This document shows positions 38 to 5,149 of a stretch of DNA of 64,000 nt, one piece after another. Numbering within the stretch: the first letter of the stretch is position 1; each line of letters opens with the position of its first letter. A program made the translations under genes and the position numbers. The DNA comes from Thermincola carboxydiphila (lineage in GTDB: Bacteria > Bacillota > Thermincolia > Thermincolales > UBA2595), in contig JAENYP010000012.1 in NCBI GenBank assembly GCA_016841725.1, forward strand, positions 1 to 64,000. The letters are read 5' to 3'. The notes below the pieces were generated by a model, which made no database searches, had not been told where the DNA came from, and saw nothing but the letters and a program-made list of their open reading frames with translations.

Positions 38-138
38 ATAAGTTCGGGTAGGTGGTAAGCGCTTAACGAACGGGTGCATGGTCAAAACAGCCTTGCCATG
101 AGAGAATATCCCCAATACGAGGAATGGGGGTAGATAAA

Positions 139-462
139 ATGGCAAGTCAGGAACAACTGGCATTGGTGGCTGAATGCCGTGCCAGCGGTATGACCGCGAA
201 AGACTGGTGTGAAGCAAGAGGTATCAACTATCGTCATTATGTGTATTGGGCTTCCCGTGTTAACCGGGCCCAGCGGACCAACCAGGATCACCATGACCAG
301 CAACAGCCACAACCACAGTGGGCTCTGGTAAAAATGACAGGGGAACCGGAGGTAATCGGTGAAATTCGGCTTGTCTGCGGCAGATGGACCATTTGCGTGG
401 GAACTGGTTTCAGTCCTGTTCTTCTTGCCGAGGTGCTTAAAGTAGTGGATGGCATATGCTAA
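139..462 (+). CDS. tnpA: IS66 accessory protein TnpA
   Basis: A small protein of about 107 residues resembling the IS66 accessory protein TnpA. The N-terminal half has the helix-turn-helix-like stretch 'ECRASGMTAKDWCEARGI', then a Gln-rich linker, then a C-terminal part with 'GEIRLVCGRWTICVGTGF'. An ATG at 124 in frame adds five residues; the ATG at 139 gives the family-like start MASQEQ. The end overlaps the tnpB start, as is usual for IS66. The frame is open, but its partners are broken, so the protein is unlikely to act in transposition from this copy. Confidence 0.82.
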   Translation: MASQEQLALVAECRASGMTAKDWCEARGINYRHYVYWASRVNRAQRTNQDHHDQQQPQPQWALVKMTGEPEVIGEIRLVCGRWTICVGTGFSPVLLAEVLKVVDGIC

Positions 463-757
463 AGGAAATCACCAGCTAGAAATCACCAGCTATGACGGGA
501 TTTATTTGGCATGCGGGGCCACTGACCTAAGAAAATCGGTATACGGTCTAGCCATCATTGTTAAGCATGAATTCAACATGGATCCGTTTGGGAACTACCT
601 TTTTCTGTTTTGCAACCGGAACCGCAATCGGCTAAAATGCCTGAACTGGGATAAGAACGGCTTCGTACTGTACTACAAGAGGCTAGATGGGGCGGGAGCA
701 CGGTTTAAATGGCCGAGGGAGCCGGGGAAGAATTGGAGATTATACCGGCCCATGTAA
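449..757 (+). pseudogene. tnpB: IS66 TnpB (Orf2), duplicated near the start and truncated at the 3' end
   Basis: The core 'YDGIYLACGATDLRKSVYGLA' region is diagnostic of IS66 TnpB. The canonical start would be the ATG at 456 (MLKEITS...), but it runs into a stop after seven codons because 14 bp are tandemly duplicated at 464-491. The frame stays open only from the ATG at 449. The C-terminus also departs from the family after 'RFKWPRE', where the sequence passes directly into tnpC coding sequence in another frame. This implies a deletion removing the tnpB end and the tnpC N-terminus. Non-functional remnant. Confidence 0.85.
464..491 (+). repeat. 14-bp tandem duplication inside tnpB
   Basis: Two adjacent 14-bp units (464-477 and 478-491) differ only in their first base (GGAAATCACCAGCT and AGAAATCACCAGCT). 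Removing one unit restores the canonical reading MLKEITSYDG from the ATG at 456, so the duplication is a secondary frameshifting mutation. Confidence 0.85.
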
Positions 758-1087
758 AGCTGCTGCGATATATCCGATACAGCTATGTCTGCGAATGTTG
801 CGAGAAGGAAACGGGAGAAGCGACGATAGTGAAAGCACCTACTCCCGCACCTGTCATAAAACGAAGCCTTGCTTCGGCCTCTACTGTGGCCCATGTCATG
901 TACCAGAAATATGTCAACGGCATGCCCTTGTACCGGCAGGAAAAGGACTGGGCCAATCAAGGTATTGTCCTATCCAGAGCGACTTTAGCCAACTGGATTA
1001 TCCGGTCGGCAAATGACTGGCTGGTAGCCTTTATGGGAGACAATGAAGGCATATCTGCTTAAACAGGCGGTGATTCATGCGGACGAA
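709..1087 (+). pseudogene. tnpC: IS66 transposase TnpC, 5' fragment
   Basis: Encodes the internal part of an IS66 DDE transposase: the 'EELEIIPAHVKLLRYIRYSYVCECCEKE' zinc-finger-type region, then 'YVNGMPLYRQEKDWANQGIVLSRATLANWI', typical of the family. The N-terminal portion of the family protein is absent. The open frame ends at 1062. A shifted frame continues as LLKQAVIHADE up to 1087, so there is a frameshift shortly before the break. HADE contains the first catalytic Asp of the transposase. Coding resumes at 4258, after the inner element. Confidence 0.85.
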
Positions 1088-1113
1088 TTATGTAGAGCTT
1101 CACATAATTCGTC
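1082..1113. repeat. 12-bp perfect palindrome at the left junction of the inner element
   Basis: GACGAATTATGT (1082-1093) and its exact reverse complement (1102-1113) flank an 8-bp spacer. The first arm includes the GAC GAA codons of the interrupted transposase. Its TTATGTAGAG subsequence is repeated in the adjoining terminal inverted repeat. It may be a recombinase core or attachment site, or a remnant of an earlier integration; this role is inferred. Confidence 0.6.
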
Positions 1114-1142
1114 TTATGTAGAGCCATATATTATGCCGAGTC
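1112..1142 (+). repeat. Left terminal inverted repeat of the RIT-like element
   Basis: The sequence starting TCTTATGTAGAGCCATAT matches the reverse complement of 4229-4259 at 28 of 31 positions by eye. The unit contains a TTATGTAGAG motif, also found once more just outside at 1088. Confidence 0.8.
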
Positions 1143-1295
1143 GTGGGCAGTTATGCCGCATAGACATGGGATTTGCGGCATAACCACTCAACATAATTAT
1201 TAGATGTTTTTCCGAAGCCAGGTAATCAAGGCCTCTTTTTCTCTTTTACTGTACTCCTTAACGGATTCCGTAATCAGACTGCTTGCTTGTTCAAT

Positions 1296-2217
1296 TTATT
1301 TTCTTTTCAGTTCAGGGTTGCATCTTGCATAGATCTCTGTTGTGGTAACGGAGGAATGCCCAAGAAAACCCCTAATATATATTAAGTTTACTCTGTTTTC
1401 AAGCAGATGCATTGCTTTAGAATGCCTTAATATATGAGGATGCAGCTTAGATGGATATAATTCTGGCCTTGCCTGACGAGCCATGTGCCCATATTTATCA
1501 AGAACATAGGATATTCCCGACCTTGACAAGGGCTTATCAAATCTGTTGACAAACACTGGATGCGCCATGTTGTAGATGCTGGCAGAGTTAAGATAAGCTT
1601 TTATGATATCCGCAGCGTTGGTACTTATAGGTATTACTCTTGCCTTGTTTCCTTTTCCGGTAAGGGCAACCGTGTTTGGGCTACGGAAGGCAAGGTCACC
1701 CACCCTCAAATCAATAAGTTCCTGAACCCTGCAGCCGGATTCATACATTAATGCAATCATTGCAAGATCACGGATACCTTGCGTAGAATGACTGTCGGCA
1801 TTTTGAGAAGATATTCAACAGCATCTACGCTTAGGTATTGAACCGGTTTCTGTGGGGCCTTCTTAACACGGATTTTTAAGATACCCTGACACTGGGCACT
1901 TTCCTCCGGACTTTTGCGCGTGCTACATAACCACAAAATGCTTTTAATGCAGCAAGCCTCTGATTTCTTGAACTGATGCTGCAGCCTCTTGACTGTTCCA
2001 GCCAATCCAGAAATCCGCTTACATTATCTGTATTCAGCGTATCCATTTTTAGTTTGCTGATCTTGCAGATACCGGCTTCCTCAAGGTATTTGAGAAACAG
2101 TATGAATGCATCCCGGTATGACTTTATGGTATTGATTGACAAACCAGCCTCATTACCAAGATATTTTGTAAAGAAGCTGCTTACATAATAAGATAAATCC
2201 TTCCTGTGCATAGTCAC
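1296..2217 (-). pseudogene. Third tyrosine recombinase (RitC-like), broken by two frameshifts
   Basis: Three partial frames together make one integrase of about 305 residues. Residues 1-95 or so (from 2217) hold the SAM-like core-binding domain ('LSINTIKSYRDAFILFLKYLEE'). A frame change near 1890-1915 leads to 'PVQYLSVDAVEYLL'. A second near 1790-1797 leads to the catalytic domain 'MIALMYESGCRVQELIDL', with 'HPHILRHSKA', 'LGHSSVTTTEIYAR' and the terminal Tyr. The catalytic Arg, HxLR, GH and Tyr motifs survive, but the gene cannot make one protein as read. Its start overlaps the end of gene B by 4 bp, as expected of translationally coupled trio recombinases. Confidence 0.85.
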
Positions 2218-3190
2218 ACCTCCGGAAAAATCTTTTCAGCATCTTGGTGGCTGAACTGCAGTATATCAATAAAGTACTGCTTTGTCAGGCGGAGATATTT
2301 CTCTGTCGATTCAATACCCTTGTGCCCAAGATAGGTACTAAGTATGGGAAGTGAGCAGTAAGGATCCATGCCTTTGCGAATCATTTGCTCCAAAGCATGG
2401 ACACTGAAAGTATGTCTCAGGTCATGTATGCGCGGATACTTTCCACTACTTAACTGGGATATGCCGGCTTTCTCCTCCAGCCTTCTAAACTGGTTTAGAA
2501 TGGTTGTTGAAGAGTATCGTTCATGGCGAAGCGCAGGAAAAAAGAATGGATTTCCAGCTCTTTGAACCTTTGAATCAAACATGGATAAGTACTGTCGTAG
2601 TGATTCGGATACCGGAACCAGACGGGATACATTATTTTTGCCATTCATAATGACAAGAACTCCATTATCGAGATTAACGTGTTCACACTTGAGGGCAAGA
2701 GCTTCGCTAACTCGTAATCCACATCCATACAGCATACGGATTACCGCAGGATATATATAAGGGGTATTTACAAACTTATTCTTGTTTGGCCCGATTGCAT
2801 CAGCTTCCCGAAGAATCCGATTGATTTCATCTTTGGTAAAAATATACGGAACAAAGTCTTCGGTAGTTTTAACCAGTTCCTTTGGGTAAACATAAGCTGG
2901 AATGCCTCTTAAGTCTAAGAAAAGGGCAAACTGTCTCATATGGGATTGTCTTCTATGAAGGGTCCGGGCACTTTCATTGCCCCGTTCGATGCATACATAT
3001 TAACCAGTTCCGGCTGTAAAGCCAATATAGGATCTGATTTTGAATTAGTGTATATAAAATTAAGCATACGGTTTACTTCGGCTTGTTCGCTATAGGAGTA
3101 CCTAAATCCAAGGGATTGTTTATATTCCACATACTCCATAGCAATGTCACGGTAAGTCTCGGGAAAATTGAAGGTGTTATACTGTTTCAT
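2214..3190 (-). pseudogene. Second tyrosine recombinase (RitB-like), one frameshift
   Basis: The N-terminal 84-codon frame (3190-2936) holds the core-binding domain ('ETYRDIAMEYVEYKQSLGFRYSY'). The 241-codon frame (2939-2214) carries the catalytic domain. An alternative frame across 2936-2990 reads ERGNESARTLHRRQSHMRQFA and joins them, so one base is missing or extra around 2980-2990, in the short G run. Catalytic residues are present: Arg in 'YGCGLRVSEAL', 'IHDLRHTFS', 'YLGHKGIESTEKYLR'. About 325 residues would be normal. It overlaps gene A by 14 bp. A sequencing error in the G run cannot be excluded; programmed frameshifting seems less likely. Confidence 0.85.
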
Positions 3191-4112
3191 ACGGCACCTC
3201 CAAAGCTAATTTTCTAAGGGTATCAATATCGATGTTAAGATACATTCTGGTGGTATTGATGTTTGAATGTCCCAATACCTCCTTGATTACATACATAGGG
3301 GTATTGTTATGGAGCATGCTACTTGCCAGAGAATGCCGCATGGCATGCGGACCATGCTTACGTTCCGATTTGTCTACGCCTGCTTTTTGGAAGTATTTAG
3401 AAACTATGTGGTGTATGCAGGTATTAGTCAACGGCTTCCCGCTATTTTTTACACCTATAAAAATATACTCTGAGTCGCTATTCGGGCGTCCATTTTTTAG
3501 ATAATCGATCAGTCCATATCTGATATTTTTCAGCAAAGGCAACTGATTAAACATTTTAGTCTTATACTGAACAAACTCAATCGTATCGTGTTCCCAATGT
3601 ATATCCGACATTTTCAGCCGGATGATGTCTCCGGACCGGATACCAAGTTCTGCAGCCAGTAGTACAACCACAAAGTCCCTTTTTCCATAAGGAGTAGTCC
3701 GGTCTATGGCAGAGACGATTCGCCTGATTTCCTCAATGGAATAAAAGGAAAGTATACGTTTCCGTTTGTTGGTAAATATGACCGGAAACAGCTCATTACC
3801 TGAAAACAGTGTAAGTTTTCTGCTGTTCAGGTAATTAAAAAAGTGGCGCAAAATAAATTTGCGTCCACTGATGGTGGAAGAAGATAGGTCAGCGTTGGAA
3901 GATAAATAACCAGTCACATTTTTCTGTAAGCAGTGCTGAAAATCCTTCACGTTGTTGCCACCAAGATAATTCGCAAAAGAAGTAATCGTTACTCTTTTAG
4001 ATGAAATTGTCAGTGGTGACAGGCTCCTGAACTCTTCTAGGTTCAGGTATTCTTCCAGGATATCGGAATAAATATCATACCTGAGAAGAATCTTCTTGTT
4101 TTTGTTATGCAT
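3177..4112 (-). CDS. First tyrosine recombinase (RitA-like), intact
   Basis: A 311-residue site-specific recombinase. The N-terminal SAM-like core-binding domain spans roughly residues 10-110 ('LSPLTISSKRVTITSFANYLGG'). The C-terminal catalytic domain has Arg in 'LGIRSGDIIRL', 'HAMRHSLASS' (HxxR), 'VLGHSNINTTRMYLN' with the His and the nucleophilic Tyr. All catalytic positions are present and the frame is uninterrupted, unlike its two partners. It is the promoter-proximal gene of the trio on the minus strand; a purine-rich ribosome-binding site (AGGAGG) lies just upstream. It would cut and rejoin DNA at the element ends together with the other two recombinases. Confidence 0.88.
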   Translation of the reverse strand: MHNKNKKILLRYDIYSDILEEYLNLEEFRSLSPLTISSKRVTITSFANYLGGNNVKDFQHCLQKNVTGYLSSNADLSSSTISGRKFILRHFFNYLNSRKLTLFSGNELFPVIFTNKRKRILSFYSIEEIRRIVSAIDRTTPYGKRDFVVVLLAAELGIRSGDIIRLKMSDIHWEHDTIEFVQYKTKMFNQLPLLKNIRYGLIDYLKNGRPNSDSEYIFIGVKNSGKPLTNTCIHHIVSKYFQKAGVDKSERKHGPHAMRHSLASSMLHNNTPMYVIKEVLGHSNINTTRMYLNIDIDTLRKLALEVPYETV

Positions 4113-4228
4113 TTTGATGCACCTCCTTTTTTATGAGGATAACATCAAAATGTTATGTTGAGTTGTAATTCCAAAAAAATGACCCAATTGCCTGCAATGC
4201 AATAACTTTTTTCAACTTAATTAGGAAT

Positions 4229-4259
4229 GACTCTACATAATATATGGCTCCACATAAGA
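4229..4259 (-). repeat. Right terminal inverted repeat of the RIT-like element
   Basis: Inverted partner of 1112-1142. It contains two inverted copies of the CTCTACATAA / CTCCACATAA motif, so the subrepeat structure of the left end is mirrored here. IS66 coding resumes within it at GAT GAG ACT (4258). Confidence 0.8.
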
Positions 4260-5069
4260 TGAGACTGTAATCCAGGTGCTTAAAGAAGAGGGCAAGAAAC
4301 CACCCTCAGAGTCACGGATGTGGCTGTACTGTTCAGGCAATATAGCCACTAAGCAGGTGGTGTTGTATGAATATCAGCCCACCAGGTCGGGTGAGCATGC
4401 GAGACGGTTTCTGGCGGGCTTTCGTGGGTATTTGCAAACAGACGGCTACAGCGGTTATAATAAGGTGCCCGATGTAACCCGATGTGGCTGCTGAACTCAC
4501 CTACGGCGTAAATTTCGGGAGGCCATGCCAAGGGGAGTCGCCGTTGGTTCCACCGCCGCAATAGGTTTCGAATACTGCAACAAGCTGTTTGCAATTGAGA
4601 AAGACCTGGAACAGCTCACTACCGAAGAACGTAAAACCCAGCGTCAGGAACGGTCTAAGCCAGTTCTTGAGGCTTATTGGTCATGGGTAGTCACAGTGAA
4701 TGTTCTCAAAGGATCCAAACTTGCCGAAGCAATAACTTATTCTGTAAATCAGAGAATGAGCCTGGGCACATTTCTGGAGGACGGGCAGATTGCACTATCC
4801 AACAACCGGGCTGAGAATGCAATCAGGCCCTTCGTCATAGCAGAAAAGGATGGTTGTTTTCAGATACAGCTAAAGGAGCCCAAGCCAGTGCCGTTGTCTA
4901 CAGTATTGTGGAAACGGCAAAGGCCAATAAACTCAACGTATTTATGTATCTGGTTCATATCTTCAGCACAATGCCGGGGGCTGACTTTAAGACCACCCCG
5001 TCTATCATAGAAGACTTTATGCCCTGGTCAGAAAAACTGCCGGATTACTGCCGAAACACAAAAGATTGA
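4258..5069 (+). pseudogene. tnpC: IS66 transposase TnpC, 3' fragment with two frameshifts
   Basis: Continuation of the transposase catalytic domain: 'DETVIQVLKEEGKKPP', 'SRMWLYCSG', 'GFRGYLQTDGYSGYNKV'. The frame breaks near 4480-4525 and resumes with the 'CNKLFAIEKDLEQLTTEER' region. It has the 'ALSNNRAENAIRPFVI' motif that carries the catalytic Glu, breaks again near 4854-4900, and ends with the family C-terminus 'PWSEKLPDYCRNTKD'. With the 5' fragment it accounts for the C-terminal two thirds of an IS66 transposase. Confidence 0.88.
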
Positions 5070-5149
5070 ATATGATTATTCCTGCCGGCACATGCAGTTC
5101 AGTCATGCCGGGGTCGTTTTGTCAATGCGCCTTTTCGTTAAGCGCTTAC

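Follow-up and report, generated by a model that had tools for sequence, protein, structure and literature searches.

A recombinase-in-trio element at the HADE codons of an IS66 transposase gene in Thermincola carboxydiphila, and its putative two-core attachment site

Knowledge of recombinase in trio (RIT) elements goes back to about 2009. In the literature consulted, their mobility and mechanism of integration are undemonstrated, and their ends are said not to fit the usual recombinase sites. Several insertions have been described. According to PMC2864759, ritA1B1C1 of C. metallidurans CH34 inactivates an IS66 tnpA, and trios inactivate radC in CH34 and in B. petrii; PMC3414803 places the RITs of A. 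ferrooxidans in a Tn6049-like transposase, with a 28-29-bp inverted repeat, an overlapping palindrome and no convincing recombinase site. This report concerns an insert in the tnpC gene of an IS66 element of Thermincola carboxydiphila (assembly GCA_016841725.1, contig JAENYP010000012.1, positions 1 to 64,000; this whole stretch of 64,000 nucleotides is called the window). The insert is a real, decayed RIT of a clade with a short RitA protein, and it is located at the codons of the HADE motif of tnpC. For its clade, the Asp-Glu codons (GAYGAR) of this motif are probably the specific site of integration, which would proceed by a route that makes use of two cores.

The trio and its place in tnpC

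An earlier note on this DNA, made from the sequence alone, had proposed a recombinase-in-trio element nested in tnpC, and its outline stands. The gene breaks off after VIHADE, with GACGAA (Asp-Glu) at 1082-1087, and restarts with GATGAG at 4258 as DETVIQVL. Three overlapping tyrosine-recombinase genes, all on the minus strand, are found in between, enclosed by an imperfect inverted repeat of 34 nt (1109-1142 and 4229-4262, 88% complementary), the element-specific portion of which is given in Table 1. The overlaps, 3177-3205 for A/B and 2217-2235 for B/C, provide the gene adjacency and overlap that characterize RITs, and the inverted repeats at the ends, about 28-34 bp long and adjoined by a palindrome, are likewise those of a RIT. 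The open reading frame listing of the window element has no frame other than the trio between the inverted repeats. At other loci (L021, L024 and L025 among them) the three overlapping genes are intact.

Do the proteins belong to RIT trios, or with phage integrases or Tn554-type genes, the groupings that would have spoken against the proposal? All three are Xer-like tyrosine recombinases, the third gene matching Phage_integrase (E 2e-28), and the catalytic R-K-HxxRH-H-Y was found in each (in alignments of the window RitA and of the RitB and RitC fragments). When compared with the trio of Cupriavidus necator pHG1, each recombinase has its positional counterpart as top match, in the order RitA-RitB-RitC: 33% identity for RitA (E 2e-56), 38% for RitB (E 4e-50) and 42-44% for the RitC fragments (E 1e-22 and 8e-42). 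Pairing with these counterparts and the presence of the catalytic residues in all three identify the insert as a RIT; grouping with the other two classes was not observed. One trait differs. Two core-binding domains are said to be typical of RitA in PMC8138268, and the window RitA does not have both: it aligns from about residue 105 of other RitAs, and only 145 bp separate its ATG from the element end. As gene order, orthology, ends and layout are all those of a RIT, the short RitA is taken as a variant trait. It recurs (open frame of about 306-324 aa) in a group (L021-L037, L047 and L062) that includes the IS66 clade and its sister pair, L047 and L062.

Among 84,980 species genomes, a search with profiles gave 80 loci. 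All 16 window-clade loci that have flanking DNA, the window included, share one insertion point in IS66 tnpC, namely this Asp-Glu codon pair, and when the flanks are joined over a single core the frame is restored, in phase 0, in each of the 10 loci having both halves. The tnpC neighbourhoods hold 3-10 GAYGAR sites each, and the HADE site alone is used. We take the Asp of HADE to be the first catalytic one in the DDE transposase of IS66, a point on which a literature search gave no text.

Empty sites were sought with the joined flanks of the window in 398 genomes of the phylum. A congener has an uninterrupted tnpC that shares both flanks, is 97.8% identical over 464 nt and has CATGCG-GATGAG-ACTGTA at the site; the intact gene reads CATGCGGATGAGACTGTA, and the palindrome is absent. 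A second empty site is present in Sporolactobacillus nakayamae, whose intact tnpC (a 553-aa open frame) shares one flank, with 93% identity over 1,554 bp, with the upstream half of an interrupted copy elsewhere in that genome; the half ends at GATGAA followed by TTATG. The earlier note had called for an uninterrupted tnpC, and the outcome that could have undone its reading, intact IS66 relatives that never share the flanks, did not occur. In the window's own genome no intact IS66 copy was found, the sole match being the interrupted copy, and the plasmid collection yielded only a 58-nt match.

Comparison of the junctions, which had been suggested as a way to exact ends, places these as in Table 1. 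Core 3, GATGAG, is the core of the congener's empty site; cores 1 and 2 (GACGAA) differ from it. On insertion a 6-bp core was thus replaced or exchanged, and the insertion contributed further cores. Core 1 was probably brought in by the element, since it differs from the empty-site GATGAG and equals core 2. A target duplication, also to be looked for according to the note, is not there in classical form: the two junction cores, GACGAA and GATGAG, are unequal.

The nearest relative is a 3,153-bp contig of Desulforamulus putei, which begins and finishes exactly at the core and is 92% identical to the window element over 3,157 aligned positions. With this copy as reference, ritB has one frameshift (-1 near 2987) and ritC has two (-1 near 1799 and +2 near 1919); ritC also has a premature stop near 1296, as placed from where the reading frame ends. 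By these lesions the window copy is decayed. Signatures of IS66 TnpA-like, TnpB and TnpC proteins are present on both sides of the insert region, and the host tnpC is itself decayed by frameshifts. Here is a decayed RIT inside a decayed IS66, yet ritA is intact. Elsewhere in the window's genome (G000:C25:414422-416616; L002 and L020) a separate RitA-like gene is followed by a 279-aa recombinase; this is not a trio, and it adjoins group II intron fragments.

Table 1. Positions in the window of the RIT, its ends and its IS66 host
Feature	Position	Strand	Remarks
RIT element	1114-4257		3,144 bp
Appendage	1088-1113		26 bp, in addition to the element
Core 1, GACGAA	1082-1087	+	Asp-Glu codons of tnpC HADE; upstream junction
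Palindromic unit, TTATGTAGAGCTTCACATAA	1088-1107	none	20 bp, between two inverted cores; missing from intact tnpC
Core 2, TTCGTC	1108-1113	+	inverted relative to core 1
ritC-side terminal inverted repeat	1114-1142	+	two TTATG(N)3AG-type motifs
ritC	1203-2235 (about)	-	decayed; catalytic R..K..HxxRH..GH..Y legible in fragments
ritB	2217-3205 (about)	-	overlaps ritA and ritC; catalytic residues present
ritA	3177-4112	-	intact, 311 aa; first core-binding domain missing (N-terminal ~105 aa in other RitA)
ritA-side terminal inverted repeat	4229-4257	-	
Core 3, GATGAG	4258-4263	+	same as the congener empty-site core
Host IS66	47-5149	+	terminal inverted repeats ~55-106 and 5098-5149
IS66 tnpA-like gene	124-462		
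IS66 tnpB	449-757		
IS66 tnpC, two halves	725-1087 and 4264-5069		

A putative two-core attachment site

The window reads tnpC-GACGAA-(20-bp palindrome)-TTCGTC-element at one end and element-GATGAG-tnpC at the other. The core-palindrome-core arrangement of the appendage occurs once in the window and in none of 100 shuffles, which is far beyond chance. Exactly one palindrome is present in 29 loci, and these show the same order: target, core 1, a 20-bp palindrome of the TTATGNNNAGCTNNNCATAA type and core 2, then the element, and lastly core 3 and the target again. The palindrome adjoins the ritA side of the element in 15 of these and the ritC side in 14; relative to the target its side is fixed, being upstream in tnpC and istB and downstream in rve-type hosts, in which the core runs opposite to the gene. 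Proteobacterial plasmid RITs, that of pHG1 included, also have a 20-bp palindrome at one end, as judged by inspection.

A few loci depart from this order. One (L033, termed T5/T5) has two palindromes and two upstream halves, and two others (L024 and L055, T3/T3) have no palindrome and two downstream halves; these look like the reciprocal products expected of recombination between copies. Two identical copies with one flank in common and the other flank different (L044 and L045) carry a trace of inter-copy recombination as well. Where the cores of a clade vary, 17 loci are informative, and in 11 of them cores 1 and 3 resemble each other most (p ~0.008 against 1/3). Core 2 is often the one that differs, which fits core 2 as a relic of an earlier site.

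How might such ends arise? The mobility of the trio is inferred from the empty sites and from recurrent insertion. The three recombinases would excise a circle with a junction that runs from the ritA-end through a core, the 20-bp palindrome and an inverted core to the ritC-end, and the circle's attachment site, being palindromic with two cores, would let either core meet the target core. Either could then recombine with the GAYGAR core of a target tnpC, through a 6-bp crossover region in which the two wobble positions may be mismatched. With either core, the palindrome would come to lie on the upstream side of tnpC with the element in either orientation, an outcome seen among the loci; the two routes place the palindrome alike and turn the element in opposite directions, which matches the observed geometry. 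One junction would retain the target's core and the other could carry that of the element, again an outcome that is seen, and the unused core would stay beside the element. A direct recombination of core 1 with core 3 would restore tnpC exactly, and an inverted one of core 2 with core 3 would flip the element. By settling in codons that the transposase is unable to alter, the RIT would have a lasting target across diverse IS66 elements.

Several points weigh against this scheme. The circle junction was not found when its pattern was sought in the loci and in IMG/VR; the hits are an abutting second RIT end (L144 and L145) or chance (L146). The core-distance test weakens to a p of 0.028 when all 39 loci are taken, and related elements are included in it. 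Ordinary homologous recombination between copies could also yield the T5/T5 and T3/T3 loci. The bases flanking the core vary save at protein-fixed positions; conserved bases around the core were considered as a source of specificity and set aside, as only codon-constrained positions stand out. Finally, with ritB and ritC broken, the window copy is probably inactive on its own.

Could the movement be site-specific and replicative, as has been proposed for strand-biased circularizing elements (SEs), a double-stranded circle with 6 bp of flank being copied out while the donor stays? Core exchange looks alike in excision and copy-out models. Several contigs of 3.1-3.5 kb start and stop at or inside the core, as collapsed repeats would, and collapsed multi-copy contigs would fit copy-out. 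In SEs, according to PMC10214605, the circle includes 6 bp from the left flank, and an empty site is not left behind. SEs and GInts, however, have a fourth gene (Srap or GinD) that is absent from the window RIT, and copy-out is considered unlikely here. Very improbable is the proposition that the 26-bp appendage is no part of the attachment site but what is left of a decayed RIT that had inserted earlier at the same place. It is true that the appendage consists of two 10-bp element-end motifs set back to back with cores on either side. A decay remnant would differ in length and in side, whereas the unit keeps a length of 20 bp and a palindromic form (7-10 of 10 pairs) in 29 loci, which range from Bacillota to Bacteroidota and Actinomycetota; it recurs in the proteobacterial plasmid RITs, and its side of the target is fixed. 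In the 398 genomes of the phylum the palindrome pattern has five sites in four genomes, the window's own included, and those inspected adjoin RIT ends. Integration through a two-core attachment site is retained as the preferred, probable explanation.

Recurrent insertion and other targets

Does the shared site reflect repeated insertion, or descent from a single ancestral insertion into one IS66 that spread and diverged with its host? The IS66-targeting RITs form one clade in the RitA tree (100/99), and IS66 itself transposes and could carry a RIT along. Common descent is nonetheless scarcely credible and was rejected on the protein identities: two of the elements (L022 and L037) have RitA proteins that are 91% identical in hosts whose TnpC proteins are only 48% identical, and in 63 of 66 pairs conservation is higher for RitA than for TnpC. 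Insertion was therefore repeated, not single. In addition, both element orientations occur, a 98%-identical empty copy of the window's own host is present in the congener, and sister clades hit analogous codons of unrelated genes. That the RIT targets a palindrome already present inside tnpC, as the earlier note had it (a 12-bp stem is visible at 1082-1113, with arms 1082-1093 and 1102-1113), can be dismissed, since the intact tnpC with 98% identity is without the palindrome and the stem is carried by the element in every relative.

Two further IS66 loci are of interest. One (L103, genome G160) has the upstream half of tnpC, a core-palindrome-core unit and only a stub of an element end; it is a truncated relic at the same HADE codons. 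The other, on a Sinorhizobium meliloti plasmid (L135), has a RIT with a one-end palindrome in the C-terminal coding part of tnpC (AKLNRIDPQAWLADVL); from this position, another RIT lineage uses a different IS66 site.

Outside IS66, a sister clade (L040-L047, L055 and G306) is inserted at the Walker-B Asp-Glu codons of IS21 istB. Most of the remaining flanked loci are at a KG/KIER-type sequence of rve-type transposases, a region that in this family contains the catalytic Glu. One RIT is in radC at LVHNHPSG, a JAB-domain motif (L095), and one in a YhcG-type PDDEXK nuclease gene near VIELKTGKFKP (L059); conserved functional motifs are hit outside transposases too. A scan of IMG/VR by end pattern only showed that about 25 of 44 viral contigs (L147-L187) encode RIT recombinases, with RITs in phage genes. 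The same phage gene seems to be occupied repeatedly (L151, L155, L157, L164, L183 and L184). In L144 and L145 a RIT end abuts the core-palindrome-core unit of another RIT beside a phage ClpP-like protease gene, an arrangement of nested or tandem insertions at one site. Insertions in radC, the YhcG nuclease gene and phage genes show that RITs overall are not confined to transposases; the window's clade, as far as its flanks indicate, is.

Significance and comparison with known systems

The findings incline us to two proposals. One is an attachment design not previously described for RITs, in which a palindromic unit carries two inverted 6-bp cores, either core can integrate and the unused core is a record of an earlier host site. 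The other is that RIT clades are parasites fixed on the functional-motif codons of mobile-element genes (IS66 HADE, IS21 IstB Walker B, rve-type KG/KIER). Neither codon-level, clade-specific targeting nor a two-core site is reported in the PubMed Central papers mentioning RITs, in the passages that do so; Ricker et al. (2013) and Nielsen et al. (2017) lie outside that search, and novelty is conditional on them.

Why should this matter? The comparison yields exact ends, a 6-bp core, true empty sites, an orientation rule and a defined attachment site, and with these in hand integration is directly testable on a plasmid. It also provides a clean case of a mobile element specialized on functional-motif codons of the genes of other mobile elements; the RITs of the window's clade look like specialized parasites of such elements. 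They are comparable to introns and inteins at conserved active sites, where the target can hardly alter the codons without losing function.

With described RITs (pHG1 H16_RS31805/31810/31815 and ritA1B1C1 of C. metallidurans CH34) the window element has in common the overlapping A-B-C genes, positional orthology, terminal inverted repeats and lack of cargo. Unlike them, it has a short RitA (311 aa) that is without the first core-binding domain, a length of 3.1 kb, a clade-wide fixation on the IS66 HADE codons and explicit two-core ends. Tn554-type transposons also have several tyrosine recombinases that move together, and their site-specific insertion with a 6-bp core is a further likeness. 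Unlike in Tn554, the third gene of the window RIT encodes a RitC-family tyrosine recombinase and not tnpC, cargo is lacking and long inverted repeats are present at the ends, which sets the element apart from that group. GInts and SEs resemble it in having multiple recombinases, and the 6-bp flank on the circle is an SE feature according to PMC10214605; these elements need a fourth gene (GinD or Srap) and carry cargo, whereas the window RIT has three genes only and is not one of them. Finally, as with the coupling sequences of Tn916-type elements, target-derived and element-derived junction cores can differ, here GACGAA and GATGAG. Unlike Tn916-type elements, the window RIT has three small recombinases, two cores per attachment site and a fixed codon pair as its target.

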